Assembly (NCBI RefSeq): GCF_003634585.1
Contig: NZ_RBLG01000002.1
Coordinates: 868,001 to 932,000, forward strand
Reading direction: 5' to 3'
Origin: Gillisia mitskevichiae
GTDB taxonomy: Bacteria > Bacteroidota > Bacteroidia > Flavobacteriales > Flavobacteriaceae
Length of the DNA: 64,000 bases
Below the pieces are notes generated by a model. The model was not told where the DNA came from and made no database searches. It saw only the letters and a list, made by a program, of their open reading frames with translations. How positions within the stretch are numbered: the stretch's first letter is position 1; each line of letters starts with the position of its first letter. Position numbers and translations under genes: made by a program. Below, piece after piece: positions 1 through 62,760 of this stretch.

Positions 1-2
1 CC

Positions 3-779
3 ATATATGGAAAATTAGTGCTTAGTAACAAGTTGGAAAGCTGTGAAAAGGAGATTATTAAAATCTTGTTCGATCTCTTAAAAAATAAAAACAGATTAAA
101 TCATTCTCCCGAATATTTTTACACCTATCAAAATGCTACTGTTGTGGTAGATGCAGAGCGCTACTACAAGGCCATGTATTATGGAAGTGCAGAATCTTGG
201 AACTTAAGGGATTTTCACATGTTCTATACACTAAAATCGTTGTTGTCCTATTTTGGTCCAGAAACTAAAGCGGTAGTTTGGGCACATAATTCTCACATTG
301 GTAATGCTATGGCTACAGAAATGTATTCCAGAGGCGAAATTAACATAGGTCATTTGTGCAAAGAGCATTTTGGTTCAAAATCATACCACATTGGATTTGG
401 CACACATACAGGAACAGTTGCTGCCGCTAATAATTGGGGAGATAAAATGAAAATGATGCCAGTAAATAAATCTACGGCTGGCAGTTATGAAAATCTTTGC
501 AATAAAACTAACATCGCTAACTTCACGCTTCCTTTACGAGAAAAACATTCTGACGAGAAACTAAAAGCTTTATTAAGTATACCAAAATTGGAACGAGCTA
601 TTGGTGTAATCTATAAACCACAAACCGAACTCTTAAGTCATTATTTTCAAGCAGTTTTACCCTCACAGTTCGATGAGTATATTTGGATAAATAAAACCAA
701 GGCGATCTCCCCAATAACAACAGGAAAAACAACACCAAAACTTATAGAGCTACATCCTTTTAGCTTAGTAGATAAATAA
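3..779 (+). CDS. Erythromycin esterase-like protein, C-terminal part (cut by window edge)
   Basis: The reading frame is open to the left edge, so the GTG at 18 is an internal codon and the gene starts outside the window. About 258 residues of the C-terminal part are visible. The segment VVWAHNSHIGNA (codons around 280-310) matches the erythromycin esterase (EreA/EreB) family, where a His in this region belongs to the active site. Family members hydrolyse macrolide lactones, but most chromosomal Bacteroidota homologues have no proven substrate, so a resistance role is not established. It converges with the phosphoribosyltransferase gene with only two bases between the stops. In other Bacteroidota these families sit together or are fused, which supports the call. 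I am confident of the family and unsure of the substrate. Confidence 0.8.
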   Translation: MYGKLVLSNKLESCEKEIIKILFDLLKNKNRLNHSPEYFYTYQNATVVVDAERYYKAMYYGSAESWNLRDFHMFYTLKSLLSYFGPETKAVVWAHNSHIGNAMATEMYSRGEINIGHLCKEHFGSKSYHIGFGTHTGTVAAANNWGDKMKMMPVNKSTAGSYENLCNKTNIANFTLPLREKHSDEKLKALLSIPKLERAIGVIYKPQTELLSHYFQAVLPSQFDEYIWINKTKAISPITTGKTTPKLIELHPFSLVDK

Positions 780-781
780 AA

Positions 782-1423
782 TTATTGAGTGTACGAAGAA
801 TTAGCTTCATTTAATAATCGTGCTACAGTTGCATCGTCAACTTGTTCAAAATCTTGATAGAACTGCCCTACTGCCCTAAAGTTTTCCGGAACTAAAAGAC
901 AAACTACCTCATCTATATATTGTGAATGTTGCAATTTTTGTAAAGCATTGTTGGAAGCAACCGGAATTGCAACTATCATCTTATGAGGCTTTTCTTCAAA
1001 CAGCATTTCAATTGTAGATAGAATTGTATTTCCGGTAGCAATACCATCGTCCACTACAATTAAAGTGTGACCTTTTAACGGTAAAGGTTTTCTATTCCCA
1101 TAATATTCATGAAATCTTTTTTTAAGCTTCTCTCTAATACGCTTTGTTTCCATTTCAATATATTCTGAAGATATATGAGAAGTAACATCACTTAATACTC
1201 TATTTTTTAAAGTTACAGCCCCAATCGCATATTCTTTATGTAAAGGATGTCCAATTTTTTTTGAAAGCACCACCTCCAAGGGTAATTTTAAGGATTTTGC
1301 TATGGCATACCCCAATGGAACTCCCCCTCTTGGGATCGCTAAAACTATGGCATCGTCGTCTTTATATTTTTGCAATTTAATTGCTAATATTTGGCCAGCT
1401 TCTTTTCTGTCTTTAAATCTCAT
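782..1423 (-). CDS. Phosphoribosyltransferase family protein
   Basis: The protein has 213 residues with a type I phosphoribosyltransferase fold. The PRPP-binding loop is at about residues 122-133 (VVDDGIATGNT), and PRGGVPLG near residue 31 is the usual N-terminal PPi-loop region. Such stand-alone proteins are annotated from sequence only, and the base or other acceptor is unknown. The gene lies six bases downstream of the alpha/beta hydrolase gene on the same strand, so the two are probably co-transcribed. Homologues near erythromycin esterase-like and dienelactone-hydrolase-like genes recur in stress-associated clusters. The family assignment is firm. A purine salvage role is not supported by the context. 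Confidence 0.85.
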   Translation of the reverse strand: MRFKDRKEAGQILAIKLQKYKDDDAIVLAIPRGGVPLGYAIAKSLKLPLEVVLSKKIGHPLHKEYAIGAVTLKNRVLSDVTSHISSEYIEMETKRIREKLKKRFHEYYGNRKPLPLKGHTLIVVDDGIATGNTILSTIEMLFEEKPHKMIVAIPVASNNALQKLQHSQYIDEVVCLLVPENFRAVGQFYQDFEQVDDATVARLLNEANSSYTQ

Positions 1424-1429
1424 TTCAGC

Positions 1430-2074
1430 TTATTTTAAATACTCATTAAACCAATGAATGGTATATTTTGCTACTTCTTCTAATTTGCCGAGTTCAGAAA
1501 ATAAGTGCGTTGCGCCTTCTATTATTTCTATTTCTTTTATACCTCCAAGTTTAGCGTAGGCTTTTTTATTTAATTCTATAACATCCTGATCTTTACTCCC
1601 AATAATTAATAGTGTAGGGCATGTAACTTTATCTAAAACAGCTAAAGCAAGATCTGGTCTTCCTCCCCTAGATACTACAGCAAATATTTTATCTTTTAGC
1701 TGGACAGCTGCTTTCAAGGCTGAAGCTGCACCAGTACTCGCGCCAAAATATCCAATGTGCAAATCATTAAACTTCTCATTATTAGCAATCCAATTCGTTA
1801 CATTTACCAATCGTTCGCATAAAAGATCTATATTGAACCTATTCCCATAAAAAAGGTCCTCTTTCTCTGTTAATAAATCGAACAATAAAGATGAAAACCC
1901 TGCACCTTGAAGCAATTCTGCTACATAATTATTTCTACTACTTAACCTGCTACTCCCACTTCCATGAGAGAAAACAATTAAGCCTTTAGTATTTATCGTC
2001 TCTCTTAATCTACCTTTTAAAGTAACCTCAGCTATTGGAATTTCAATTTCTTTAAAACTATATATATGATCCAT
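1430..2074 (-). CDS. Alpha/beta hydrolase (dienelactone hydrolase-like)
   Basis: The protein has 214 residues and no signal peptide, so it is probably cytoplasmic. The nucleophile elbow GASTGA places Ser113. The acid is Asp162 or Asp164 in GSKDQD and the base is His190 in GATHLF, giving a complete catalytic triad. FSHGSGSS near residue 35 is the oxyanion-hole strand. The substrate cannot be read from the sequence. It is first in a two-gene minus-strand unit with the phosphoribosyltransferase. A Crp/Fnr-like palindrome with a -7 element lies 97-139 bases upstream and would give a leader of roughly 90 nt. Confidence 0.85.
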   Translation of the reverse strand: MDHIYSFKEIEIPIAEVTLKGRLRETINTKGLIVFSHGSGSSRLSSRNNYVAELLQGAGFSSLLFDLLTEKEDLFYGNRFNIDLLCERLVNVTNWIANNEKFNDLHIGYFGASTGAASALKAAVQLKDKIFAVVSRGGRPDLALAVLDKVTCPTLLIIGSKDQDVIELNKKAYAKLGGIKEIEIIEGATHLFSELGKLEEVAKYTIHWFNEYLK

Positions 2075-2170
2075 AGTTGAGGATTTTAGTTAATAGAAAG
2101 TTGTTAAAAAAACAAAGAAATGTACTCTTTACAGGTTTTTCTCTTTCAAAGTATATATATAATTGCATTT

Positions 2171-2213
2171 TAAAAGTAAGAGTTAAAAATCTCGATTAAA
2201 ATGATCGATATCA
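2171..2213 (-). promoter_or_regulatory. Crp/Fnr-like activator site A1 plus -7 element for the hydrolase operon
   Basis: The palindrome core TGAT-CGAT-ATCA is at 2202-2213. On the minus strand TACTTTTA (2178-2171), matching TAnnTTTR, begins exactly 35 bases from the first core base. The same geometry recurs at six other sites in this cluster. The plus-strand equivalent position (2237, TACCTAAA) fits the -7 consensus worse, so I assign the site to the minus-strand hydrolase gene. Confidence 0.65.
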
Positions 2214-2315
2214 GTTAATTTCACTAAACTATTCTTTACCTAAACCAGATTAAAATCCTTCATTTTACCCAAGAATATGAATTTTGCTCTTTATTAGATA
2301 ATAATATTTTCTTTA

Positions 2316-2358
2316 TGACATATATCATATTTAACTCATTTAAAGCGCAATACATTAG
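2316..2358 (+). promoter_or_regulatory. Crp/Fnr-like activator site A2 plus -7 element, no protein gene downstream
   Basis: The palindrome core TGAC-ATAT-ATCA is at 2316-2327, with flanks A and T. TACATTAG (2351-2358) starts 35 bases after the core start and matches TAnnTTNG. A start site near 2363 is implied. The next downstream element is the terminator hairpin at 2461-2510, with no plausible ORF between them. Confidence 0.65.
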
Positions 2359-2362
2359 CCTT

Positions 2363-2510
2363 ATAAAAGGAAAGTTCATTGAAAATATAGTACTATTTGA
2401 TTACTAACTTTTAATTTGAGGTGTTTGTAGGGTGATATTTCATTTTACTGGAAGGTAATGGGGAGTTTAGGATCATAATATGATTGTAAACTCCCTAATG
2501 AACTTTTTTT
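2363..2510 (+). ncRNA. Predicted small RNA 1 (about 150 nt)
   Basis: This is inferred from a promoter-like signal (site A2) and an intrinsic terminator with no coding sequence between them. The terminator stem is GGGAGTTTA / TAAACTCCC (2461-2469 with 2487-2495), with a second inner stem ATCAT/ATGAT, followed by seven T (2504-2510). No known RNA family was recognised. It could instead be a leader or a relic, since nothing here demonstrates expression. Confidence 0.45.
2461..2510 (+). terminator. Intrinsic terminator hairpin of predicted small RNA 1
   Basis: A nine-base-pair perfect outer stem (2461-2469 with 2487-2495) encloses a five-base-pair inner stem. A T run follows at 2504-2510, eight bases after the stem, which is slightly far for a canonical terminator. 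Confidence 0.6.
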
Positions 2511-2558
2511 ATCAAAAGAAATGCTTTTCTAAAAATTAAAGTAAACCTACTTCCTGTA

Positions 2559-2601
2559 TGATATTTATCATATAATTTAAATAAAATAACTACTAGCTTA
2601 G
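2559..2601 (+). promoter_or_regulatory. Crp/Fnr-like activator site A3 plus -7 element, no protein gene downstream
   Basis: The palindrome core TGAT-ATTT-ATCA is at 2559-2570 with A and T flanks. TAGCTTAG (2594-2601) starts exactly 35 bases after the core start. A start near 2606 is implied, and the next element is the strong terminator at 2781-2813. Confidence 0.65.
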
Positions 2602-2605
2602 TGTA

Positions 2606-2813
2606 TAATTAATAAGTTCATTGGAATAGTAATCTCTTAATCATTAGTTTTCATTGTAAAAGCAATGAGAGCTACTTAGAGGTAGTTTTAAGATTGTTGG
2701 AATAGTTTCGCACGATGCTTTGTAAAAAAAGCTGAGTAACCGAGATTTATCTTCTAATATAATATCACTATTTCTAGGAGAACAGGGATGTTTTTGGCAT
2801 CCCTGTTTTTATC
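2606..2813 (+). ncRNA. Predicted small RNA 2 (about 210 nt)
   Basis: Defined by site A3 upstream and a strong intrinsic terminator downstream. No ORF with flavobacterial character is visible between them. The arrangement copies that of predicted small RNA 1 just upstream, which argues for a tandem pair of regulated non-coding transcripts. Expression is not shown. Confidence 0.5.
2781..2813 (+). terminator. Strong intrinsic terminator of predicted small RNA 2
   Basis: A ten-base-pair stem AACAGGGATG / CATCCCTGTT (2781-2790 with 2798-2807) with a seven-base loop is followed directly by T residues. It would also work weakly on the minus strand. Confidence 0.8.
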
Positions 2814-2895
2814 TATTCTCAGTAACTATAGGAGGTTACTTAAACATATGTAAATCTAGAGGTTGAAATTGTTTTTTTGGAAGTTATCTTGAATG

Positions 2896-2988
2896 TAGTT
2901 TAGAATATAAATTGCAAATATAGATCATGAGACAAAAAAATAGATCAATATCTAGAACAGGAACAGGTGGGCTTTAGCTCACCTGTTC
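2896..2988 (+). ncRNA. Possible third small RNA (about 80-90 nt)
   Basis: TAGTTTAG at 2896-2903 with TTTGG about 17 bases upstream (around 2876) resembles a plain Bacteroidota promoter. The hairpin at 2961-2988 would end the transcript. No Crp/Fnr-like palindrome precedes it. This is weaker than the two upstream units. Confidence 0.3.
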
Positions 2989-2995
2989 TTATTTT
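2961..2995 (+). terminator. Strong intrinsic terminator hairpin
   Basis: The stem GAACAGGTGGGC / GCTCACCTGTTC has 12 pairs, one of them G-T. It has a TTTA loop and is followed by TTATTTT. It is the third terminator in a row in a stretch without protein genes. Confidence 0.75.
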
Positions 2996-3211
2996 ATGCA
3001 ATTAAATTTCCTGGTTGGTATTTAAATTTCACTTATTTATCACTAATATATTTCTATAATTACTCCAGAATTATTAAAACTCATGCCATCATAGTAATTC
3101 ATACATGAGAGTACGGAAACGCACCTTTGAAAGTGGGGAAATTCCTTGATAGCCATGGATCTAATTTTAATTCTTATTGATTTAAATTAAGAACACCTAG
3201 CCTTGATTTCA

Positions 3212-3254
3212 TGAGAATTATCATTTTTTAAGAATATCTGGAAAGCTAGATTAG
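3212..3254 (+). promoter_or_regulatory. Crp/Fnr-like activator site A4 plus -7 element for the universal stress protein gene
   Basis: The palindrome core TGAG-AATT-ATCA is at 3212-3223, with one mismatch in the left arm. TAGATTAG (3247-3254) starts exactly 35 bases after the core start. The implied start near 3259 gives a leader of about 19 nt before the ATG at 3278. Confidence 0.7.
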
Positions 3255-3277
3255 TAACTAGTATTAAATCTTCAATC

Positions 3278-4117
3278 ATGAATAAAATTCTTATTCCTAC
3301 TGATTTTTCCGCAAATGCAATGAATGCTATAAAATATGCTTTGCAACTTTTTAAAAACGAACAAAGTAACTTTTATATAATACATACTTTTGCAGATGAA
3401 GTTTATGATAATCACACCGTTTTAACCAGGGCATTATTTGAAGAATTTAGGGATATTATAAAAAAGAAATCAGAAAAGCAGTTGGGTGAACTTTTAATGA
3501 TATTAAAAGAAACCTATCCAAATCCTAAACATCATTTTGAAGCTATTTCTAAGTTTGGAAATTTAGTAGATGAAGTAAACCATTTCGTAGATAATGAAAA
3601 GATAGATGTAGTGGTAATGGGAACCAGAGGTAGGACCGACAACAGGTCTATAGATTTTGGAAGTAACACATTGCAGGTTATAAAATACATTAAATGCCCC
3701 GTGTTGGCCATCCCAAAAGCTTACACTAAATTAAATTTACAGAAAATGCTTTTTCCTACTAATTATCTTGTTCCTCTGAAACGAAAGGAATTAAAATTAG
3801 TTAGTAATCTTTCAAAAATCTTTAAAGCTCAAGTTAAGTTTCTTTACATTTCGAAATCCAAAAAATTATCTTTCAGACAACAAGATAATAAGGAATCTAT
3901 AAAACATATGATGGCGGGTAATAATACTCAGTTTATAGAAGGTGAAGGTGAAGATCTTATTAAGATGATCCACGATGAAATCGAAAAAGAAAAAATTGAC
4001 ATGCTCATTATGGTAAATTCTAGAAAATCTTATTTGGAAAGTTTATTATATCCTTCTACAGTTCAAAAATTAGGTTTGCAAATTCAAATTCCCTTTTTAG
4101 TGCTTCAAAACTTTTAA
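3278..4117 (+). CDS. Universal stress protein, tandem UspA domains
   Basis: The protein has 279 residues in two UspA-type domains (about 1-145 and 150-279). It opens with ILIPTDFS. The first domain ends with VVMGTRGRTDNRSIDFGS and CPVLAIP, the ATP-binding G-x2-G-x9-G(S/T) type region of UspA proteins. The second domain keeps the fold but its nucleotide motif is degraded (LIMVNSRKSYLESLL). Tandem cytoplasmic Usp proteins of this kind are common in Bacteroidota under oxygen or nutrient stress. The gene stands alone behind activator site A4, which is the best-placed of the seven sites relative to a start codon. Confidence 0.9.
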   Translation: MNKILIPTDFSANAMNAIKYALQLFKNEQSNFYIIHTFADEVYDNHTVLTRALFEEFRDIIKKKSEKQLGELLMILKETYPNPKHHFEAISKFGNLVDEVNHFVDNEKIDVVVMGTRGRTDNRSIDFGSNTLQVIKYIKCPVLAIPKAYTKLNLQKMLFPTNYLVPLKRKELKLVSNLSKIFKAQVKFLYISKSKKLSFRQQDNKESIKHMMAGNNTQFIEGEGEDLIKMIHDEIEKEKIDMLIMVNSRKSYLESLLYPSTVQKLGLQIQIPFLVLQNF

Positions 4118-4203
4118 GGCTGCTCATTTTTTTTTGAAGGGGTTCTATAAAACGAAAAAACCCTTTCAAATTAAATAGAACAATATCCTATTTTCATTCA
4201 TGT

Positions 4204-4566
4204 TTAACTGGTAACTAGCCTATATATTAAAATAATAATGGAAATGGTAAAAATGCCCGTGTAAATTAATTTGTTATGACGAGCTATCCAATTAGGTAAA
4301 AAGATATCGAAGTTGTCTTTGGTTGAGTTTGAATATTTTCGTGCCATAATTGTTAATGGACAAAACATCTTGAATAACACCAGAATGATGCCTTCCAACA
4401 ATACCAATCCAATACATATCCAAACCCATTTATCTATACTATTAACTATCACAGCGTATAATAAATAGAATAGTACCACATTGTAAAATGCCCAAATAAG
4501 GGTATGAATAATTTTAATAATGAATAACTTTTCTCCTTCTCGTTTATTGGAATAATCTTTAAGCAT
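4204..4566 (-). CDS. Small membrane protein, unknown function
   Basis: The protein has 120 residues with three likely membrane segments (about 18-42, 48-68 and 98-118). A conserved-looking CPLT motif lies just after the second segment (FCPLTIMARKY), reminiscent of DUF2784-type membrane proteins, but I am not sure of that assignment. The gene converges with the universal stress protein gene and lies downstream of the alcohol dehydrogenase gene with a 77-base gap, so co-transcription is possible. A function cannot be given. Confidence 0.65.
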   Translation of the reverse strand: MLKDYSNKREGEKLFIIKIIHTLIWAFYNVVLFYLLYAVIVNSIDKWVWICIGLVLLEGIILVLFKMFCPLTIMARKYSNSTKDNFDIFLPNWIARHNKLIYTGIFTISIIILIYRLVTS

Positions 4567-4643
4567 ATTTAATTCTTTTGCTTTCCAAATGCTTGCTCCA
4601 AATAGTTGTTCGTGATAATTCCTTAGAATGATTTAAAGCTGTC

Positions 4644-5672
4644 TCAGTTAATTTTTAAAACTTTAGCTCCTCTTATATTTTTATTTTTAAGATCGAATAG
4701 TGCTTTATTTGCCTCTTCCAAAGAGTACAATTGAACCTCAGGCTTTATTGAAGCTTTTACTGCCAGTTCTAGAAATTCTAATACATCCATACTGGTGACA
4801 TTGGCTACACTTTTAATTTCCTTCTCCATCCATAAATGATCCTTGTAAGAAATCTTTTGAAGATAATCTTTGTCTTTATCTTCTTTCCTAATGGCATTTA
4901 TTACTAGCTTCCCTCCCTTTTTTAGATTGCCCAAGGATTTAATTATTGGCGTCCAAACGGGAGTAGTATCAATAATTACATCTAATTTGTTAGGAGGTTG
5001 ATGAGTAATATTACCAGACCAAACAGCTCCACAATCTATAGAAAATAGCCTTTCTTTTTCATTTCTGGCAAAGACAAATACTTTTGAATTTGGATAAAGG
5101 TAGTTAAGCATTTTAAGAACAAGATGTGCGGAAGCTCCAAAACCCATTAGGCCAATCTGGCTATCATTCATTATTTGAGCTAGTTTTATCGAGCGATACC
5201 CAATAGCTCCAGCGCACAATAAAGGAGCTGCTTCGGGATCGGAAAAAAACTCTGGAATGGAATAAACGTAATTTTCAAAAGCTACCATATATTCAGCATA
5301 TCCTCCATTAACATCCTTTCCCGTAGCAACAAACTTATCACAAAGATTCTCGTTTCCTTGCTTACAGAAATTGCATTTCCCACATGCAGAAAATATCCAT
5401 GCAACACCCACACGTTCTCCTAATTTAAATTTGGTGATCTTCGATCCCACTTTCGTAATAGTTCCAATAATTTGATGGCCTAGAATTATAGGGAATTTTA
5501 TGAGAGTTATCCTTCCTTCAATTTCATCTAATTCTGTATGGCACACCCCGCAATATGAAACCTGGATAAGAACTTGATTCTCTTTTGGACTGGGAATAGG
5601 AATTTCAACCAAATCTAGTGGAGAGCTGTGCTCTTTAATGCAAGATATCTTATTAAGAATCATTGCTTTCAT
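4644..5672 (-). CDS. Zinc-dependent alcohol dehydrogenase
   Basis: The protein has 342 residues of the medium-chain dehydrogenase family. The catalytic zinc region CGVCHTELDEIEG is near residue 40, GHQIIGTITKVG follows, and the structural zinc loop with four Cys (CGKCNFCKQGNENLC) is near 95-110. The NAD(P)-binding stretch LMGFGASAHLVLK is degenerate compared with GxGxxG. Length and motifs fit the zinc-dependent alcohol dehydrogenases that accompany universal stress proteins in low-oxygen clusters. The substrate is unknown. I found no copy of the Crp/Fnr-like palindrome in the 140 bases upstream. Confidence 0.85.
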   Translation of the reverse strand: MKAMILNKISCIKEHSSPLDLVEIPIPSPKENQVLIQVSYCGVCHTELDEIEGRITLIKFPIILGHQIIGTITKVGSKITKFKLGERVGVAWIFSACGKCNFCKQGNENLCDKFVATGKDVNGGYAEYMVAFENYVYSIPEFFSDPEAAPLLCAGAIGYRSIKLAQIMNDSQIGLMGFGASAHLVLKMLNYLYPNSKVFVFARNEKERLFSIDCGAVWSGNITHQPPNKLDVIIDTTPVWTPIIKSLGNLKKGGKLVINAIRKEDKDKDYLQKISYKDHLWMEKEIKSVANVTSMDVLEFLELAVKASIKPEVQLYSLEEANKALFDLKNKNIRGAKVLKIN

Positions 5673-5813
5673 GTGTATATGCGTTTAATTATATAAAAAG
5701 ATTTACACTCCAGTTTTGAATGTAATTTAGAGGTTACTTACCTTTACTTATTAGTGGAAAGCTAATTCCACCAATAAACTAAACACCTATTTTTGAAGCA
5801 GTAGTGTGAGATG

Positions 5814-6185
5814 TTAGGAAACTTCCGATTCTTTCTTTGCCTTATTTTTAGAGAGCCTTTCAATAAGATCTGGAACCTTTTCAAATATAGCCGAAAGGTT
5901 ATTGGCTTTTCCAGCAGCTAAGAAAGAAATTTCATCTTCCCTACTCACTAAAAAACCTATTGGTTCTATACCTACCCCTGCTCCAGCACCCATGCCTTCA
6001 CCTCTACTTCCCTTTGTCATTCCACCTTCACCTCCACCAGATCCAAATCCCATTCCTACTTTAATAACTGGAACACACTTAAAATTTCCCAATTCAAATT
6101 GTTCACCTACTATCGTTTCTGTTTTAGCTTCAGACTTGATAAAATCTGTCACTCTTCCCAATAATTCTTCAAAATGTAAGTCCAT
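5814..6185 (-). CDS. GerW (YtfJ)-family protein
   Basis: The protein has 123 residues and belongs to the GerW/YtfJ family, named after a Bacillus spore germination protein but widespread in bacteria that do not sporulate. A short helical N-terminus (FEELLGRVTDFIKSEA) precedes a strand ending in PVIKVGMGFG, a Gly-rich loop (about 48-80) and GIEPIGFLV. It is cytoplasmic with unknown biochemical role. The upstream gene on the same strand starts 11 bases away and encodes a YtfI-like membrane protein, so the Bacillus ytfI-ytfJ gene pair is conserved here. Confidence 0.85.
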   Translation of the reverse strand: MDLHFEELLGRVTDFIKSEAKTETIVGEQFELGNFKCVPVIKVGMGFGSGGGEGGMTKGSRGEGMGAGAGVGIEPIGFLVSREDEISFLAAGKANNLSAIFEKVPDLIERLSKNKAKKESEVS

Positions 6186-6196
6186 AATCTTAATTT

Positions 6197-6706
6197 TTAA
6201 ATATTAATAAATGCTTTAATAATATAGATGGGTCTATTATAAATAGATAGTAATATTCGATTTCTGCCTTCAAAATTGATATTAAATTCTCCAGCATCAG
6301 AATTAATTAAATGAGCTATTGCAAACATTTTGGCATTAATAATATAATCTCCAGTATCTACATCTATCTTAAATTTCTTTATTCTAAAAGATCTCAAAAT
6401 TTTCAAACCTGTTTTTAATCTAAATCCTTTAGATTTTTGCTGGGTGCTAATCTTCTTTCTATCGATGTTCTCTTTTATCGATCTTGTACTTCTATCTTTT
6501 AAAGGGTAGAAATAGAAGTTGGCAAAAAATATGTTCAATTTTATCCTAATTATTTCTTCTTTATGTTTTTCAATATTAGCTTTTAGTAAACCTTTTAATT
6601 GAATGGAGTAAATATTAGAGTTTGTATCTACAAATAAAATAACCGGTATCCATAACATATAAATTATTAGAAGTAAGCAGATTATGGAAAGAGCATAAGT
6701 AAACAT
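6197..6706 (-). CDS. YtfI-like (DUF2953-type) membrane-anchored protein
   Basis: The protein has 169 residues with one N-terminal membrane segment (about 3-25), then a basic region and a beta-rich C-terminal half. No enzyme motif is visible. I propose the DUF2953/YtfI family because of this layout and because the next gene, 11 bases downstream, is the GerW/YtfJ partner as in Bacillus. The family call is an inference from weak similarity plus neighbour. The pair lies behind activator site A5 and probably forms one transcript with a leader of about 10 nt. Confidence 0.6.
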   Translation of the reverse strand: MFTYALSIICLLLIIYMLWIPVILFVDTNSNIYSIQLKGLLKANIEKHKEEIIRIKLNIFFANFYFYPLKDRSTRSIKENIDRKKISTQQKSKGFRLKTGLKILRSFRIKKFKIDVDTGDYIINAKMFAIAHLINSDAGEFNINFEGRNRILLSIYNRPIYIIKAFINI

Positions 6707-6720
6707 CTTTTGTTTTCAAG

Positions 6721-6763
6721 TAAAATAAATTAATTATTAGCCTTAAACATATGATTTTCATCA
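6721..6763 (-). promoter_or_regulatory. Crp/Fnr-like activator site A5 with degenerate -7 element
   Basis: The palindrome core TGAT-TTTC-ATCA is at 6752-6763 with A and T flanks. At the same 35-base offset on the minus strand the sequence is TTATTTTA, which misses the second base of TAnnTTTG. This is the weakest -7 element of the seven. It precedes the YtfI/GerW pair. Confidence 0.5.
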
Positions 6764-6791
6764 TATTACAAAATAAAGTTTGGTGTAGGCC

Positions 6792-7373
6792 TTAAAAACT
6801 TACAGCAAGTCCTATCCCAAATGAAATATACCTATGATCTATACTTTCTGTAATATTGAGATATTTGAAGTCTTTAGAAAGGGAGCGATATTTAAGTTCT
6901 GGACGTAAAGACCAGTTTTCTGCAATCAAATATTCCAATCCTACGGAAGCCTGCCAACCTAAGCCGTATCCCGTATCTTCAGATGTTTCATTTAATCTAT
7001 CCTCTACTTCCAAATTATTATAGATTCCACCTACATTTAGTACGTAGGATGTTTTTACAAAATTCAGAAACGGATCTTTAAATTTTAATCCCAAGCTAAA
7101 GCCAGTTTCTTTCACATCTCTCTCTCCATTTATAGATGTTTCCTTAGTTGTAAATTGATTCCATCCAGATGCTGCATACACATCGAATTGAGGTGAAAGG
7201 GAATATCCTCCTATCAATTCGAAACCGAAACCGGTTTCCAAATTAGTCTCTCCAATCTCTGTACTAGGAAAATTTAGTCCAGGCTTAAATTCTAAAGACC
7301 ATTTTTCTTGTCCCAGTAATGTGAAGCTAAAAAGTAATAAGCTTAAGAAAAGGCATTGTTTAGATAGTTTCAT
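6792..7373 (-). CDS. Outer membrane beta-barrel protein
   Basis: The protein has 193 residues with a Sec signal peptide (about 1-21, ending LLGQ). Alternating amphipathic strands follow, and it ends in a Phe (GIGLAVSF), typical of an eight-strand OmpA/OmpX-like barrel. No ligand can be inferred. It has its own activator site (A6) about 60 bases upstream, which makes it part of the same inferred regulon as the stress genes around it. Confidence 0.8.
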   Translation of the reverse strand: MKLSKQCLFLSLLLFSFTLLGQEKWSLEFKPGLNFPSTEIGETNLETGFGFELIGGYSLSPQFDVYAASGWNQFTTKETSINGERDVKETGFSLGLKFKDPFLNFVKTSYVLNVGGIYNNLEVEDRLNETSEDTGYGLGWQASVGLEYLIAENWSLRPELKYRSLSKDFKYLNITESIDHRYISFGIGLAVSF

Positions 7374-7401
7374 TTTAAAATAATTAAGAATTATTAGTGT
7401 T

Positions 7402-7444
7402 TAAAACTAGACAGTTATACAGCTTTTCCAAATGACAGATATCA
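7402..7444 (-). promoter_or_regulatory. Crp/Fnr-like activator site A6 plus -7 element for the beta-barrel gene
   Basis: The palindrome core TGAC-AGAT-ATCA is at 7433-7444 with A and T flanks. TAGTTTTA (7409-7402 on the minus strand) begins exactly 35 bases from the core start and matches TAnnTTTR. The implied leader is about 24 nt. Confidence 0.7.
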
Positions 7445-7474
7445 TTGATTTGAAAATTTCTCTAAATCAAATTT

Positions 7475-10003
7475 TTAGTTAAAACTAACTTGATTCGATT
7501 GAATTCTATGTTGACTTCGTTTTCGCCATTTCACCAGTTCATACCAAATAACAGAAATCAACCCGATGCTTACACTCAGTATAATTTGATAAAGATTTAG
7601 CAACTCAAATTCAAAAAACCTCGTAAAAGCTGGTATAAATAGAAGCATCGCTGTAATTCCAAGCGTTATCCCTATTATTAGTGGGATCAACTTATTTTCA
7701 TATTTAAAGGTGGTTAATGAAGAATAATAGAAAGACCGATTAACAAAGGTTAAAAATATATTTGCTGAAATAAGAGTTGTAAAAACCATCGTTCTTGTTG
7801 TAGCCTCATCATATCCAGAGCTTATGGAGAACTGATATATTCCAAGAGTACCTAAGGTGATCACCAATCCTTGTAATACACTTGTTGTTAGCTCCTTCCA
7901 ATTAAAAAATGTTGCAGAAATTGGTCTTGGTTTTTTTGTCATTATATCCTTTTCTATTGGTTCATTTTCATAAACTATAGAACAGGTGGGCCCCATGATT
8001 AATTCTAATAGAATAATATGGATTGGAGAGAAAATGTTTGGGTAGATCCAACCCAAAATTAATGGGATTGAAACAATAAGTATAATGGGAATATGGATAG
8101 AGATAATGTATTGTATTGCCTTTTTTAAATTAGTATATATACGACGCCCCATAGCGATCGCATCCACCATTTTTTCAAGATCATCTTCCAATAAGATCAA
8201 AGAAGCTGCTTGTTTGGCGATCTCTGTCCCTTTTTTACCCATTGCGATACCAATATGAGCTGCTTTAAGAGCTGGTGCATCATTTATCCCATCTCCAGTC
8301 ATTGCTACGATTTCTCCCTTAACTTTTAGTGCGTTTATAATTCTCAGTTTAGCTTCTGGAAACATTCTAGTAAAAAGCTGTGTAGTTAAGACCTCTTCTT
8401 GAATTTCGGAATCTGATAATTTCATTAGCTGATCTCCCGTCATATGTTTTTCAAAACCTTTGAAACCTGTTTCTTTGGCAATTGCCATAGACGTTTCTGC
8501 AATATCACCTGTAATTATTTTTACATTAATTCCAGCTTTATAAAATCCTTGAAAAACGTGTTCTATATTTTTCTTTGGAGGATCATAAAAAGCTACCAAA
8601 CCTTTATACTCAAACTTAAATTCTTGCTGGAGTTTCGGCCAATTTTCACCGCTAAAATCTGCAACTCCTACCCCTAAAACCCTATATCCTTTTTTTGCTA
8701 AATTCTTAATTACCTCAAGTATTTCCTCCTTCTCCCCAGAATCTAGGTTAGATATATCTAAAAATGCTTCAGGAGCTCCTTTAGCAGCTATAATTTTTTC
8801 TCCTTTGCTATTCTGAAATATATGAGTCATCATTGGTGGTTTTCCACCAAGCGGATATTCATGGATCATTTTATAATCCTTTCTCTCATCTACAGAATAT
8901 GTATTAGAATATGCCTCATGTAAAGCAACTTCCATAGGATCAAAAGGAATAGGTTCACTGGCCCACATAGAAAATCGAATAAGTTCTTTTCCAGCTTCAT
9001 TTAAAGGCTTTTTTGGATCTTGATATTCCTTAGTTCCAATCGAATAAATAGAGACCAAGCTCATTCTATTTTGGGTTATAGTTCCTGTTTTATCCACACA
9101 AATCACGGTAGCGCTGCCTAGAGACTCAACAGTTTTCATTTGTTTAACTATTACTCCCTGCTTCATAAGTCGCCAAGCACCTAATGCCATAAAAGTGGTA
9201 AATGCTACTGGGATCTCTTCAGGTAAAATACTCATTGCCAGAGTTAGCGCTTTTAAGAAACTATCTAATAGGCTTAAAGAAACTCTATAATTTAATATCC
9301 AAACAATGATAAAAAACAGGGTTCCACCCAATATCATTTTTTTTACAAAATTGTTGATCTGATTTTCTAAAGGAGTTTTTTCCTGATCTATTTCTTCTAC
9401 ACTTTTACCTATTTCACCCAATTTAGTATTAGCTCCAATAGCCGTAACAGTGGCAATAGCCAATCCCCCTGTTACATAAGATCCCATGAAGATTAAATTA
9501 TTGTCTTTATTCTGGTCTTTATAAATAGAAAAGGATTCTCCTGTAAGTAGAGATTCATTTACTAAAAAATCATTGGAATGAACAATACTAGCATCTGCGG
9601 GAATAGTGGTGCCTTCTTCTACCATTATGCTATCTCCCACTACAAGCTCCTCTATGGCTATAGTTGAAACCTCTGCTTCCCTTATAACATTACAATTAGG
9701 TTGGGTGATTTTCTTTAATTTATCTAATGCAGTTTTACTTTTTGAATTCTGATATAGAGAAATTGTTGCAACCAAAACAATTGCAACAGCTAAAAAAATT
9801 CCATCTCCAATTTCTCCTACGATAAAATAAATGGAAGATGCAGCTAGTAATAAGAGTACCATTGGCTCTTTGATCAAACTTTTTAAAGCCTCAATAATTT
9901 GATTTTTTTTCTTGAAGGCTATGGTGTTAGATCCATGTTTGAGACGGGAACTCAAAACCTCCTCTTTATTTAAACCAACTATTCCGAAAGTATTTATAGC
10001 CAT
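7475..10003 (-). CDS. Cation-translocating P-type ATPase (P2-like)
   Basis: The protein has 842 residues with the full P-type ATPase layout. The cation ATPase N-terminal region is followed by the actuator motif TGES (154-157), an ion-site helix with PEEIP (261-265), the phosphorylated Asp304 in DKTGT, and TGDGINDAP in the hinge. A C-terminal group of about six membrane helices completes it. The architecture is that of Ca2+/Mg2+/Na+ type P2 pumps, with PEEIP where calcium pumps have PEGLP, so the ion is uncertain. No heavy-metal-binding domain or CPx motif is present. It is preceded by activator site A7. Confidence 0.9.
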   Translation of the reverse strand: MAINTFGIVGLNKEEVLSSRLKHGSNTIAFKKKNQIIEALKSLIKEPMVLLLLAASSIYFIVGEIGDGIFLAVAIVLVATISLYQNSKSKTALDKLKKITQPNCNVIREAEVSTIAIEELVVGDSIMVEEGTTIPADASIVHSNDFLVNESLLTGESFSIYKDQNKDNNLIFMGSYVTGGLAIATVTAIGANTKLGEIGKSVEEIDQEKTPLENQINNFVKKMILGGTLFFIIVWILNYRVSLSLLDSFLKALTLAMSILPEEIPVAFTTFMALGAWRLMKQGVIVKQMKTVESLGSATVICVDKTGTITQNRMSLVSIYSIGTKEYQDPKKPLNEAGKELIRFSMWASEPIPFDPMEVALHEAYSNTYSVDERKDYKMIHEYPLGGKPPMMTHIFQNSKGEKIIAAKGAPEAFLDISNLDSGEKEEILEVIKNLAKKGYRVLGVGVADFSGENWPKLQQEFKFEYKGLVAFYDPPKKNIEHVFQGFYKAGINVKIITGDIAETSMAIAKETGFKGFEKHMTGDQLMKLSDSEIQEEVLTTQLFTRMFPEAKLRIINALKVKGEIVAMTGDGINDAPALKAAHIGIAMGKKGTEIAKQAASLILLEDDLEKMVDAIAMGRRIYTNLKKAIQYIISIHIPIILIVSIPLILGWIYPNIFSPIHIILLELIMGPTCSIVYENEPIEKDIMTKKPRPISATFFNWKELTTSVLQGLVITLGTLGIYQFSISSGYDEATTRTMVFTTLISANIFLTFVNRSFYYSSLTTFKYENKLIPLIIGITLGITAMLLFIPAFTRFFEFELLNLYQIILSVSIGLISVIWYELVKWRKRSQHRIQSNQVSFN

Positions 10004-10036
10004 AAAAATATTCTTAGAGATATTCCTTTGAGGTAC

Positions 10037-10079
10037 TCAATTTAAGCCAGTTATAACGTAGTTGAACTGATAATTATCA
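10037..10079 (-). promoter_or_regulatory. Crp/Fnr-like activator site A7 plus -7 element for the P-type ATPase gene
   Basis: The core TGAT-AATT-ATCA at 10068-10079 is a perfect palindrome. TAAATTGA (10044-10037 on the minus strand) starts exactly 35 bases from the core start and matches TAnnTTNR. The implied leader is about 29 nt. Confidence 0.7.
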
Positions 10080-10198
10080 TTTCTAGCCCTATTTATATGA
10101 AATCAGAATACGGTTTTCTATGCTGCATCTAGATCAAAAAGAATAATTGGGGAAAAAATTTTGATGGATTTAGCTAGTAAAATAATCTCGAACTAATT

Positions 10199-58348: not shown

Positions 58349-58419
58349 TCACAACTGACCTTAGTCATTTTTTAATAAGCTATTTCACTTTAGCTTTCCT
58401 CTTCTTTTAATTTCAGATT

Positions 58420-61400
58420 ATGCTATCAGCTATTATAAAATTCAGTATCAATAATAAGTTCATTATTCTCTTATTCACAGCTTTTATAATAGGCTTCGGA
58501 ATTTATTCACTCACTCAAATCCCAATTGGTGCAGTGCCAGATGTCACTAATAATCAAGTACAGGTTATCACAACATCTCAAAATCTTTCTACACAAGATA
58601 TGGAGCAGTTTATCACTTATCCTGTGGAACTGGAAATGGCCAATCTTCCCGGAGTAATTGAAATACGTTCGGTTTCAAAATTTGGTCTTTCTGTTGTTAC
58701 AATTGTCTTCGACGACAAAATAGGCACCTATCTTCCCAGGCAACTTATTGCCGAAAAAATAAAATCGGCATCTCAGAAAATCCCGGAGGGTTTTGGAACT
58801 CCTGAAATGGGACCTATAACTACCGGTCTTGGAGAAATTTACCAATATATTCTCGACATTAAACCTGGTTATGAGGACACCTATTCGGTGATGGATTTGC
58901 GGACTATCCAGGATTGGATCGTAAAACGACAACTTTCCGGAATCCCCGGAGTTGTAGAAGTAAATACCTGGGGTGGGAATTTAAAACAGTATGAAATCGC
59001 CATAAATACAGAGAAACTTAATGCAATGGATATCTCTACAGGGGATATATTCACAGCCTTAGAAAAGAACAACTCTGTTACGGGAGGTGGTTATATAGAA
59101 AAAGTGAATCAGGCGTATTTTATACGGGGAGAAGGTCTTATTTCTTCCCTTGACGATATTAAAAACATAGTGGTACAAAACAAGAATGGGATCCCCGTCT
59201 ATATAAATGATGTGGCGAAAGTTGGTTTTGGTAGCGCCACGCGTTTTGGAGCAATTACCGGTAATGGCGAAGGAGAAAAAGTTTTAGGGCAAGTAATGAT
59301 GCTTAAAGATGGAAATTCCAAGAAGGTAATAGATGCTGTTAGAGAGCGGGTGGCCTCAATTTCAAAATCCCTGCCTGAAGGAGTTTACATCAATCCATTC
59401 CTGGACCGAAGTGTATTGATAGGCAAAACCACATTTACAGTTGCAGAAAACCTGATTCTAGGTTGTTTGATCGTGATTTTTGTAGTGGTTTTATTATTAG
59501 GAAATCTACGTTCTGGATTAGTGGTCGCTTCCGTAATTCCATTATGTCTTTTGTTTGCTTTGTCTTTTATGTATCTCTTTGGTGTAGATGCAAATTTAAT
59601 GAGCCTGGGCGCTATAGATTTTGGGATAATTATAGATGGTGCAGTTATTATTGTTGAATTTATAGCTTTTCAAATAACTGCAAAGAGTGCACATCTTGCC
59701 ACCTTATCCCCTTCTGAAAGACAAATAACTACAGATGAGATCACCTATAATGGAGCCTCAAAAATGATGAACTCTGCTATTTTTGGTCAGCTTATCATTC
59801 TTATAGTATTTATCCCTATTCTTTCTTTGAGTGGTGTAGAAGGAAAAATGTTTAAACCAATGGCCCTTACTTTCAGTTTTGCTTTGATTGGAGCCATGAT
59901 CTTTTGTTTTACCTATGTGCCCGTTGTAGCTTCCATATTTTTAAAACCCGCAAAGCTTTCAGAAAAAAACATCTCCGTACGATTGATGAACTTTTTAAAT
60001 CGCGTGTATGAACCCAGCATTAAATGGGCCTTAGCTAGCAAAAAATTGGTTTTAGGGATTGCAATAGCTCTTTTGGCATTTTCCATTTATCTATTTTCTA
60101 CAATGGGAGGAGAATTTGTTCCCACTCTTGATGAAGGGGATTTTGTGATTCAACCCGTGCTAAAAACTGGGACCTCCTTGAGTAATACCATAGAGATCAC
60201 GACTAAAATTGAGCAGATCCTCATCGATAAATTTCCGGAAGTAGACCAGATCGTAAGTCGGATTGGTGCTGCTGAAGTTCCTACAGATCCTATGTCTATG
60301 GAAGAAAGTGATGTTATTATTATACTGAAACCTAAAAAAGAATGGGTTTCGGCTAAAAGTAAAGATGAATTGGCAGATAAGTTCAAGGAAGCATTAGCAA
60401 TTATTCCAGGAATGGAAGTGGAATTTACTCAACCTATTGAAATGCGATTTAATGAATTGATCACAGGGGTACGCGCAGATATTGCCATAAAAATATTTGG
60501 AGAGGATCTGGATATCCTAAATAAAAAGGGCAATGAAATAAAGAGATTAATTGAAAATGTGGAAGGTGCTGCCGATATTACAGTTGAAAAAATTGCCGGT
60601 TTACCACAAATGAATGTAAAATTTGACCGTTCTAAAATTGCCCGCTATGGTCTTAATATTGCAGATTTAAATGATCTTATTTCCATGGGATTTGCCGGCA
60701 CTTCTCTCGGTAGTGTTTTTGAAGGGGAAAAAAGATTTGACCTGGTGTTACGTCTGGACGAAGAGAATCGGAAAGATATCTCCAATTTGGAGAATATGTA
60801 CGTAGATATTCCATCAGGAAATAAAATACCCTTGCGTGAACTTGCCCGGATAAGCTATACAAAAGGAGCTGCGAAAATATCCAGAGACGATACAAAAAGA
60901 CGAATTGTGGTTGGTATTAATGTGCGTAATCGTGATTTACAATCTGTGGTAGATGATGTCCAAAATTTAATTGAAAGCAAGATAACACTACCTGTAGGCT
61001 ATACTATTACTTATGGGGGACAATTTGAGAATCTGCAAAGTGCTAAAGAAAGATTGAAAGTAGCTGTACCAATTGCTTTGGTCTTAATTTTCATTATGCT
61101 TTATTTCGCATTTAGTTCCGTAAAAGAAGCTCTAATAATATATACTGCCATTCCATTAGCTGCGGTGGGTGGTGTCCTTTTATTATGGATTCGGGATTTA
61201 CCGTTTAGTATCTCTGCGGGAGTTGGATTTATAGCTTTATTTGGAATTGCGGTGCTTAATGGTATTGTATTAATTGAACATTTTAAAGAACTGAAACATC
61301 TAAAAGCTCATGAAAATAAAGATGAGCTTATTATAAAAGCAGCTAAAAGCAGATTGCGTGCAGTGCTCTTAACAGCATCTGCTGCTGCCTTAGGTTTTTT

Positions 61401-62760
61401 ACCAATGGCAATTTCAACAAATGCCGGGGCCGAAGTTCAACGCCCATTGGCCACTGTTGTTATTGGTGGTCTTGTTACCTCCACACTTTTAACTTTGGTG
61501 GTATTACCTGTTTTGTATTCTATGTTTCACAATATAAAAGGAAAGAGAAACTCTAAAAAAAATAAAAATACAGGCATCACAACTCTACTAATCATTCTAT
61601 TAGTTTTATTCTCTTCACAAAGCTACGCGCAACAACCTAAGAATCTGGAAGAACTTCTTGTGCTAGCCATAGAAAATAATACAGAACTAAAGGCCTCCAC
61701 ACTTAAAGTGAAACAAGCTGATGCCCTTATAGGCAGCGCATTTAGTATTGATAAAACTGAGATCTATTATAATTACGATGAAAGCAACCTTGCCGTTAAT
61801 AATGAGATCCTTCAAACCTTTGGGGTTCAGCAAAATTTTCAATTCCCTACTGTTTACTTTGCCAATAGAAAAGTACAGCGGGTAAATTATAAGTTGGAGA
61901 TAAATTCTCTGGAAATCATAAAAAATGCTATAAAGCGCCAGGTCACTACTGCCTACTATCAATATCTTATAGAAAAAGAAAAGGAGTATATATTTAAGAG
62001 ACTTGATAGTTTATATGGCCACTTCGCAACTTCTGCTCAACGCCGTTTTGAGTTGGGAGAAACAAATTATTTAGAGAAAATTACGGCCACCTCCAAGCAG
62101 AGACAAATCGGTATTCAATATGAGCAGGCGCAATTGGAGGTTGAAGTAGCTCACAGCAATCTTTTAAAAGTGGTACAAGTGGAAGACAGCCTATATATTG
62201 AAACAGTACCAATTGAAAAAATTCCTTTAAAGGGTGTTGAAATGAGCGCTAGTTCTGAACTGGATTTCTACCGGAATAGAGTTGAGCTGCTCCAAGCTCA
62301 GAACTTTTATGAAAGGCAACGACTATTACCGGATTTCAGTCTTGAATATTTTCAGGGATCGAACGCACAACTTAATAAAAATCTGTATGGTTATCAATTG
62401 GGCTTGAAAATCCCATTGTTATTTGGAGGTCAATCCTCCCGCATAAAAGCCTCGAAATTTGCCAGAGAAGTAGCGGTTGAAGAATCAAAGAATTATGAAA
62501 TTCATCTTACTGCGAGATATAAAGAGCTTAAAGCTAAATTGATGAAATATGAAAAGGCATTAACTTATTATGAGCAAGAAGGCAAGGCATTATCAGATGA
62601 AATTCTTAAAACAGCTGAATCCGGATTCAAAAATGGGGAGATCGATTTCTTTCAATATATAATGAGTTTAGAGAACGCTTATGAAATTAAGATCGGTTAT
62701 CTGGAACAACTCAATTTATACAATCAAACTATTATTTCGATTAATTATCTAACTCTTTAA
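58420..62760 (+). CDS. CusA/CzcA-family RND pump fused to a TolC-like outer membrane protein
   Basis: The protein has 1446 residues. Residues 1-1045 are a heavy-metal RND pump with GAIDFGIIIDGAVIIVE (proton-relay Asp residues in helix 4) and 12 membrane helices. A membrane-like segment (about 1052-1067) ending SYAQQ follows, which looks like an internal signal peptide with a cleavage site after Ala1070. Residues 1071-1446 are an outer-membrane-factor (TolC-like) domain with repeated long helices. Fusion of pump and channel is known in Bacteroidota. The likely substrate is Cu(I)/Ag(I), given the OprC-like receptor. The family also includes Zn/Co/Cd pumps. Confidence 0.88.
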   Translation: MLSAIIKFSINNKFIILLFTAFIIGFGIYSLTQIPIGAVPDVTNNQVQVITTSQNLSTQDMEQFITYPVELEMANLPGVIEIRSVSKFGLSVVTIVFDDKIGTYLPRQLIAEKIKSASQKIPEGFGTPEMGPITTGLGEIYQYILDIKPGYEDTYSVMDLRTIQDWIVKRQLSGIPGVVEVNTWGGNLKQYEIAINTEKLNAMDISTGDIFTALEKNNSVTGGGYIEKVNQAYFIRGEGLISSLDDIKNIVVQNKNGIPVYINDVAKVGFGSATRFGAITGNGEGEKVLGQVMMLKDGNSKKVIDAVRERVASISKSLPEGVYINPFLDRSVLIGKTTFTVAENLILGCLIVIFVVVLLLGNLRSGLVVASVIPLCLLFALSFMYLFGVDANLMSLGAIDFGIIIDGAVIIVEFIAFQITAKSAHLATLSPSERQITTDEITYNGASKMMNSAIFGQLIILIVFIPILSLSGVEGKMFKPMALTFSFALIGAMIFCFTYVPVVASIFLKPAKLSEKNISVRLMNFLNRVYEPSIKWALASKKLVLGIAIALLAFSIYLFSTMGGEFVPTLDEGDFVIQPVLKTGTSLSNTIEITTKIEQILIDKFPEVDQIVSRIGAAEVPTDPMSMEESDVIIILKPKKEWVSAKSKDELADKFKEALAIIPGMEVEFTQPIEMRFNELITGVRADIAIKIFGEDLDILNKKGNEIKRLIENVEGAADITVEKIAGLPQMNVKFDRSKIARYGLNIADLNDLISMGFAGTSLGSVFEGEKRFDLVLRLDEENRKDISNLENMYVDIPSGNKIPLRELARISYTKGAAKISRDDTKRRIVVGINVRNRDLQSVVDDVQNLIESKITLPVGYTITYGGQFENLQSAKERLKVAVPIALVLIFIMLYFAFSSVKEALIIYTAIPLAAVGGVLLLWIRDLPFSISAGVGFIALFGIAVLNGIVLIEHFKELKHLKAHENKDELIIKAAKSRLRAVLLTASAAALGFLPMAISTNAGAEVQRPLATVVIGGLVTSTLLTLVVLPVLYSMFHNIKGKRNSKKNKNTGITTLLIILLVLFSSQSYAQQPKNLEELLVLAIENNTELKASTLKVKQADALIGSAFSIDKTEIYYNYDESNLAVNNEILQTFGVQQNFQFPTVYFANRKVQRVNYKLEINSLEIIKNAIKRQVTTAYYQYLIEKEKEYIFKRLDSLYGHFATSAQRRFELGETNYLEKITATSKQRQIGIQYEQAQLEVEVAHSNLLKVVQVEDSLYIETVPIEKIPLKGVEMSASSELDFYRNRVELLQAQNFYERQRLLPDFSLEYFQGSNAQLNKNLYGYQLGLKIPLLFGGQSSRIKASKFAREVAVEESKNYEIHLTARYKELKAKLMKYEKALTYYEQEGKALSDEILKTAESGFKNGEIDFFQYIMSLENAYEIKIGYLEQLNLYNQTIISINYLTL

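Follow-up and report, generated by a model that had tools for sequence, protein, structure and literature searches.

What reads a set of palindromes that stand at one fixed distance from -7 boxes in the genome of Gillisia mitskevichiae (Flavobacteriaceae), and what is transcribed from those that precede no gene? The DNA analysed here, called the window, comprises 64,000 nucleotides of contig NZ_RBLG01000002.1 (C2:868001-932000). A preliminary description of its first part had listed seven Crp/Fnr-like palindromes, each followed at offset 35 by a TAnnTT-like -7 box and each pointing at the unit downstream. This arrangement was recovered at all seven places, with two sites degenerate. The explanation that fits best as a whole, and that we hold to be likely, combines class II activator sites, control by receiver-Crp fusion proteins and their PAS kinases, and a subset of promoters making RNAs led by a ribosomal RNA (rRNA)-type boxA.

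The strict site pattern was defined as TGAY-N4-RTCA-N23-TAnnTT, in which the box starts 35 bases from the core start. Five of the seven sites conformed to it (2213-, 2316+, 2559+, 7444- and 10079-), and the other two (3212+ and 6763-) were degenerate. For window positions 1-10100, 200 dinucleotide shuffles gave a mean of 0.05 strict matches (maximum 1) against 5 observed, and a mean of 0.105 loose matches (maximum 2) against 7. The pattern was thus far rarer in shuffled DNA, a comparison of the kind that the preliminary description had named as a possible refutation. Across the 3.585-Mb genome, TGAY-N4-ATCA-N23-TAnnTT had 24 matches, compared with 4 for a reversed-pattern control. Seventeen of the 24 lay within C2:785450-878079, a 93-kb cluster whose end falls inside the window. 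The window shows only the tail of this cluster, and the compactness formerly ascribed to the set (under 8 kb) was an edge effect. A looser pattern gave 30 sites in the cluster (three palindromes read both ways), most of them just 5' of open reading frames (ORFs), and one in the remaining window. The motif had also been thought absent elsewhere in the window; further TGAY-N4-RTCA palindromes were found at 35871 and 58356, the latter with a +35 box and an ATG. The seven strict matches outside the cluster had ATGs at 46-188 bases, and one of them (ATG +62) opens, as judged by eye, a Usp-like protein.

The spacing was assessed by counting TAnnTT at each offset from 14 to 60 after every TGAY-N4-RTCA palindrome. 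Offset 35 was occupied in 24 of 54 palindrome readings in the cluster itself, each other offset in 0-3. The same peak appeared in 20 stretches from relatives (79 of 200 readings; other offsets at most 6) and in 57 named loci of Flavobacteriaceae-like type, where 158 of 386 readings showed it and the remaining offsets had a mean of 5.8 and a maximum of 16; 56 of these loci had at least one +35 site. These stretches and loci had been picked for a receiver-Crp gene, not for sites; the exception was L106, a DNA match over the usp promoter. Over 36 family members, the pattern matched 465 times and its reversed controls 63 times. Palindrome flanks read (A/C)TGAT..ATCAT. An ATG-started ORF lay within 130 bases at 222 of 268 unique sites (mRNA-type), 30 sites were ORF-less and 16 fell between. 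The ATG was 59-70 bases from the core start at 170 of the 222 mRNA-type sites; at site 1, which precedes the hydrolase and phosphoribosyltransferase genes, it stood farther off, at 139 bases. Sigma-A promoters of Flavobacterium psychrophilum have their -7 box at -12 to -5, according to a flavobacterial transcriptome paper (PMC9723704), in whose main text a term search returned no mention of Fnr or Crp. With the box placed likewise here, the palindromes would be centred at -41.5, with leaders of ~12-23 nt. A TGA-N6-TCA palindrome near -41.5, the mark of class II Crp/Fnr-type promoters, is thus indicated by the +35 and ATG spacings and the start site deduced from them. The class II Fnr-type geometry proposed earlier is strongly supported by this spacing, which is fixed both here and in relatives.

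Which proteins might occupy these sites? Five proteins with a cyclic nucleotide-binding (cNMP, PF00027) domain above cut-off are encoded in the genome, two of them in the cluster (C2:813999-815042 and 845794-846849). Both of these are receiver-cNMP-HTH_Crp_2 fusions (REC-Crp), and the gene of each adjoins that of a PAS-HisKA-HATPase kinase (C2:812736 and C2:846855). The CxxC motif of Fe-S Fnr, which marks Fnr proper, occurred in none of the five. A loose site (C2:848081-, box TTATTTTA) lay 5' of one of the two kinase genes; none of the strict or loose sites of the cluster pointed at the other kinase-regulator pair. The recognition helix of the REC-Crp proteins reads ATESLIR or AAESLIR and is nearly identical to that of the CxxC Fnr-type proteins (ATESAIR) in site-rich relatives that have no REC-Crp match at E 1e-40. 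On a Crp/Fnr tree of 29 proteins from 12 genomes, the seven receiver fusions formed one clade (96/97), and the main CxxC clade was separate (99/99, 8 rows). Among the best 80 of the matches listed, receiver-Crp proteins were spread across Bacteroidota, and in 77 of these 80 loci an ORF resembling a kinase was encoded no more than 3 kb away in the same orientation. Mean site excess was 14.2 in 20 family relatives with REC-Crp, scored as a match at E 1e-40, and 7.4 in 16 without (p 0.010), among genomes that are not independent (14 of the 20 belong to one genus) and that vary in completeness. The regulators are probably the two REC-Crp proteins of the cluster and not an Fe-S Fnr. In one relative (G004, locus L055), the receiver-Crp protein had lost its phospho-acceptor Asp motif (YNKSNP for CDIMMP) and kept the Crp part; this genome had few sites (8).

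The best solved-structure matches of the PAS domains of the two kinases were FixL (E 4.7e-15) and DosP (E 1.3e-14). The C2:812736 kinase aligned with FixL (1d06) at the His and distal Arg columns, and the C2:846855 kinase with DosP at the His and Arg columns. We take the His to be the haem ligand and the Arg to be the distal residue; on this assignment both kinases have the sequence features of the FixL type, a PAS domain that adjoins HisKA-HATPase and contains a proximal His and a distal Arg. Over the named loci, His was found in 53 and Arg in 41 of 69 anchors, some of which are spurious. The kinase is therefore probably a FixL/DosP-like haem oxygen sensor, which would make oxygen the signal of the system. 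Together, the receiver-Crp/kinase pairs and the FixL/DosP-like PAS domains would follow the logic of FixL-FixJ-FixK with J and K fused.

The most unusual part of the system concerned the promoters without a gene. Sites 2 and 3 in the window, and a third one outside it (C2:853742), had no near ORF and were followed by hairpins and then T-runs. Predicted RNA 1, with a hairpin and T-run near 2505-2511, had a minimum free energy z-score of -6.2 and a longest ATG-started ORF of 10 aa; for RNA 2 the values were -6.9 and 8 aa, the transcript ends of both being estimated. In all three units, GTTC(A/T)TTG(A/G) stood 22-28 bases downstream of the -7 box start. The form GTTCATTGA also occurred in the 16S leader of the same genome and ~640 bases behind the 16S gene. 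GTTC(A/T)TTGATATATTG was present in every one of the 11 rRNA leaders examined, which represent six genomes (10 of 15 matches fetched). Five of the 11 had a second copy (GTTCTTTAA or GTTCATTAA) 32 bases after a TACATTTG/TATATTTG box, and two more had GTTCATTGAG 52 bases after TACATTTG. Because the same motif occurs in the rRNA leaders of the clade, it was taken as boxA.

Among 313 sites not selected for it, boxA was found downstream of 15; the expectation for 70-base windows was 0.68, and a control window of the same length on the upstream side had none. All 15 were among the 30 ORF-less sites, and none among the 222 mRNA-type or the 16 intermediate sites. In these 15, the motif started 14-29 bases after the -7 box start; the looser GTTCNTT was found at 20 of the 30. 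The extension TTAG of the -7 box was likewise commoner at ORF-less sites (16 of 30, vs 19 of 222 mRNA-type). The protein-coding usp promoter (window 3212-3278) has a TAGATTAG box, a type otherwise commonest at ORF-less promoters. A model of the sequence from promoter to boxA (R1) matched at least 244 of 299 family genomes; many listed matches ended before or within boxA, so this count speaks for the promoter and not for the RNAs. Strict boxA was present in 9 of 30 fetched R1 loci. Since boxA is part of the model, the set was chosen in its favour, and four of these nine had already been used: L226, L228, L229 and L227 (identical to L184 across the compared bases). These results suggest that the two non-coding units of the preliminary description, which had overlooked boxA, belong to a wider class of RNAs led by an rRNA-type boxA. 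Among the titles and abstract openings listed in literature searches, none was found on boxA-led RNAs or receiver-Crp control in Flavobacteriaceae. Elsewhere in the window, boxA-like GTTCGTTGA and GTTCTTTGA stood 21 bases apart at 44287 and 44308, away from any listed site, strict or loose.

Eleven folded sequences, some being homologues or two lengths of one RNA, were more stable than their shuffles, with z between -4.1 and -7.3 (values to which the terminator hairpins contribute) and with ATG-started ORFs of at most 33 aa. In nine folds boxA was predicted to be partly open (mean unpaired probability 0.43-0.67); in RNA 1 and in the longer version of the C2:853742 RNA most of it was paired (0.21 each). 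RNAalifold on three sequences gave both-side changes in 4 of 140 pairs, one of them within the DNA palindrome, and no covariation is claimed. The C2:853742 unit was kept at 93% over 432 bases in one relative (G013) and at 85% over 417 bases in another (G002), with matches in 3 of 99 genomes, its own counted. A 33-aa ORF in this RNA, the longest in G002 too, was rejected by eye as coding, because most changes alter the residue and the ORF crosses a hairpin. Searching 60 genomes with window 2280-3270 gave a 94-base match to RNA 1 in G002, a weak match to RNA 2 in G015 and a 64-base match in G004, which corresponds to the usp promoter stretch; the rest were short and probably due to chance. Rfam, FnrS included, gave no match over the gathering threshold in the window or in 8 loci. 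Four loci (L169, L171, L174 and L198; two titled Lutibacter, two unclassified Flavobacteria metagenome-assembled genomes) shared a conserved boxA-led RNA of ~220 nt whose body was, by eye, its own and unrelated to the window RNAs. Compact ~85-nt RNAs at L105:11938 and L184:4994 consisted of boxA, one small hairpin and a terminator. Also by eye, a TTCTAGGA-like motif stood right before the terminator hairpin both in RNA 2 (window 2770-2813) and in the boxA-led RNAs of L096 and L102 (G015, G026).

We propose the following mechanism. Each site would bind a class II Fnr-type activator at -41.5, in front of a Bacteroidota -7 box TAnnTT beginning at -12. The activators would most likely be the two paralogous REC-Crp regulators, with the PAS kinase of the neighbouring gene as the phosphate donor of each. 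In this way a regulon for persistence and micro-oxic life would be induced when oxygen is low, or by a related redox signal; oxygen is suggested by the probable FixL/DosP-like haem sensor. Its members would be Usp proteins, cbb3 oxidase, P-type ATPase, Hsp20, YtfJ and the phosphoribosyltransferase/hydrolase genes; of the two operons for a kinase and its regulator, one would be included through the loose site. A separate subset of the promoters would yield structured RNAs that are not translated and have boxA at their head. There, boxA would most likely serve to bring NusB-NusE to the RNA while it is being made, sparing the untranslated transcript early termination and letting it fold correctly, as happens with rRNA. 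Such action on nascent RNA is favoured by analogy with rRNA and CRISPR arrays; the RNAs here would be untranslated, and boxA stands right at their beginning. The RNAs themselves might have a regulatory function in the response.

Several observations weigh against this explanation. Only 9 of 23 non-Flavobacteriaceae REC-Crp loci had a +35 site, and their count at offset 35 (10) was no higher than that of the highest other offset (10; mean of the others 1.0). Four relatives (G018, G023, G024 and G032) were site-rich without a REC-Crp match at E 1e-40 and had CxxC Fnr-type proteins; since sites were abundant in G018, G023 and G032, the promoter class is not tied to REC-Crp. Two further genomes (G017, G027) had a CxxC Fnr-like protein and few strict sites. 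The terminal helix of a 195-aa cNMP protein of G. mitskevichiae, PESLSR, keeps the Glu and Arg positions, so this protein could also read TGA half sites. The PAS-column His is present in 10jx_A too, a structure that may or may not contain haem. Half of the ORF-less sites lacked strict boxA and 10 of the 30 lacked even GTTCNTT, and the G002 counterpart of RNA 1 had no boxA. The 15 boxA sites fell by eye into ~7 homologous groups, so the p value for 30 ORF-less against 222 mRNA-type sites (3e-16) overstates independence.

Some of these points would suit promoters read by another of the cNMP proteins (one of three), or by both kinds, with REC-Crp tuning only a part. The genome has five PF00027 proteins to choose from, the Glu and Arg of PESLSR are placed as in Fnr-type helices, and site-rich relatives lack REC-Crp at E 1e-40. 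However, none of the three other proteins has CxxC, two have different helices (TRAVVNR, TSRVVISR), the 195-aa protein has no HTH_Crp_2 match, and the ATES/AAES-LIR helix and the location in the cluster are peculiar to the REC-Crp proteins. We regard this reading as unlikely.

Going further, low-oxygen-induced RNAs of Flavobacteriaceae might borrow boxA to bind NusB-NusE and so tie oxygen supply to rRNA synthesis or processive antitermination. If true, the hypoxia response would have an RNA arm that uses the rRNA antitermination machinery; we consider this quite unlikely. In another reading, bolder than the favoured mechanism, the RNAs would be decoys that titrate NusB-NusE (S10) and throttle rRNA synthesis as oxygen falls. 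Titration accounts better for boxA in RNAs of ~85 nt that hardly need protection from Rho (L105 of G036, L184 of Zhouia), and it agrees with the restriction of strict boxA to ORF-less sites among the 268. The predicted pairing of boxA in RNA 1 and in the long C2:853742 RNA does not suit a decoy, which we judge decidedly improbable. A reading in which the non-coding units are no separate RNAs, but extended 5' leaders of neighbouring genes or read-through from them, with boxA incidental, is very doubtful. Some do lie 5' of same-strand coding genes (e.g. usp at 3278), but usp has its own site at 3212, hairpins with T-runs are present behind the units of the window and behind several more (some escaped the automatic finder), boxA exceeds expectation downstream of the sites and is absent upstream, and the C2:853742 unit is conserved in two relatives. 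Chance palindromes with AT-rich -7-like strings, for which the 33% G+C of the window makes TAnnTT common, were rejected as next to impossible on the offset spectrum and on shuffle means of 0.05 and 0.17 against 5 and 24 observed.

The genes behind the sites are given in the table below. By Pfam, the cluster encodes Usp proteins, cbb3 oxidase (COX1 and FixO), two P-type cation ATPases, Hsp20, PPDK, acetyl-CoA hydrolase, LigD-type primase, YtfJ, phosphoribosyltransferase, an erythromycin-esterase/PCMT fusion, ADH and others. Not every gene has its own site; one is present before the cbb3 oxidase operon. A stress or low-oxygen regulon, as previously suggested, is plausible from this content (Usp, cbb3 oxidase, Hsp20), although it is not compact. 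The product formerly labelled YtfI/GerW is a Spore_YtfJ protein, and the protein at 6197-6706 (-) had no Pfam match. At C2:864830 (L034), a loose site (TTATTTAG box) stood 167 bases 5' of an ORF resembling exonuclease III, and may belong to a leader or an RNA.

Table 1 Sites, predicted RNAs and genes in the window (window coordinates; RNA starts and ends are predicted).
Feature	Position	Strand	Details
Site 1	2202..2213	-	palindrome TGATATCGATCA; -7 TACTTTTA at 2171-2178; strict (as 2213-)
Site 2	2316..2327	+	palindrome TGACATATATCA; -7 TACATTAG at 2351-2358; strict; for noncoding RNA 1
Site 3	2559..2570	+	palindrome TGATATTTATCA; -7 TAGCTTAG at 2594-2601; strict; for noncoding RNA 2
Site 4	3212..3223	+	degenerate palindrome TGAGAATTATCA (TGAG half site); -7 TAGATTAG at 3247-3254; ATG core+66
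Site 5	6752..6763	-	palindrome TGATGAAAATCA; degenerate -7 TTATTTTA at 6721-6728 (+35); TATTTTAC one base on
Site 6	7433..7444	-	palindrome TGATATCTGTCA; -7 TAGTTTTA at 7402-7409; strict (as 7444-)
Site 7	10068..10079	-	palindrome TGATAATTATCA; -7 TAAATTGA at 10037-10044; strict (as 10079-)
Eighth site	58356..58367	+	palindrome TGACCTTAGTCA; -7 TAGCTTTC at 58391-58398 (+35); ATG core+64
Noncoding RNA 1 (predicted)	2363..2511	+	start placed at core+47; boxA-like GTTCATTGA at 2374-2382
Noncoding RNA 2 (predicted)	2606..2811	+	boxA-like GTTCATTGG at 2616-2624; terminator CAGGGATG..CATCCCTG-TTTTT
Second terminator-like hairpin	2955..2995	+	AACAGGTG..CACCTGTT; beyond RNA 2; read-through end or separate unit (by eye)
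Phosphoribosyltransferase	782-1423	-	PF00156
Alpha/beta hydrolase-like protein	1430-2074	-	Pfam matches below cut-off
Universal stress protein	3278..4117	+	PF00582
Spore_YtfJ protein	5814-6185	-	PF09579
Outer membrane beta-barrel protein	6792..7373	-	PF13505
P-type cation ATPase	7475..10003	-	PF00122, PF00689
1446-aa ORF	58420-62760	+	first 512 aa match AcrB/AcrD/AcrF-type RND transporters (PF00873; scan covered these 512 aa)

For a large bacterial family, the analysis predicts a regulon, a pair of regulators and a rule for its promoters. The results suggest that Fe-S Fnr can be replaced, at an unchanged DNA site, by a fusion of receiver and Crp. In addition, structured RNAs headed by the rRNA boxA emerge as a class, which makes Nus action on non-ribosomal RNAs in Bacteroidota testable.

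The closest known parallel is the FixL-FixJ-FixK cascade of rhizobia and Burkholderia, in which FixJ (receiver-LuxR) and FixK (Crp) are separate proteins. Shared features are the FixL-like PAS kinase, the Crp/Fnr-type output, boxes of the TGAT-N4-ATCA type and a site before the cbb3 operon. Here, in contrast, receiver and Crp output are joined in a single protein, so one transcription step is missing, and there are two paralogous pairs and a Bacteroidota -7 promoter. Fnr and Anr regulons have class II sites, with the palindrome and -41.5 geometry predicted here; unlike them, our system has no cNMP protein with CxxC (0 of 5) and has (A/C)TGAT..ATCAT flanks. FnrS and other Fnr-induced small RNAs are short RNAs from an Fnr-type promoter, as the RNAs here would be, but these have a boxA leader and no Rfam match in the loci searched.

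The lxa locus of Burkholderia cenocepacia is described as a low-oxygen block of 50 genes that include six for Usp proteins and one for a heat-shock protein (PMC6127331). Like it and the DosR dormancy regulon, the cluster gathers numerous Usp proteins and a small heat-shock protein in one block, a likeness in gene kinds only. Phylum and promoter type differ, and boxA RNAs are not mentioned for lxa in the text available from that source. Precedent for boxA at the head of an untranslated, non-ribosomal RNA comes from CRISPR arrays, where an added boxA raised precursor-crRNA ~10-fold along the array (PMC7862264, citing Stringer et al.), a block of Rho being one cause proposed there. The RNAs here differ in being short, structured and non-CRISPR, under an Fnr-type promoter. 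Finally, boxA leaders of rRNA and suhB act with Nus factors, as reported in PMC5725501, whose boxA search, by its own account, did not consider non-coding RNAs. GTTC(A/T)TTGA soon after the promoter is common to our units and the rRNA leaders of the clade, but here boxA leads separate untranslated RNAs.

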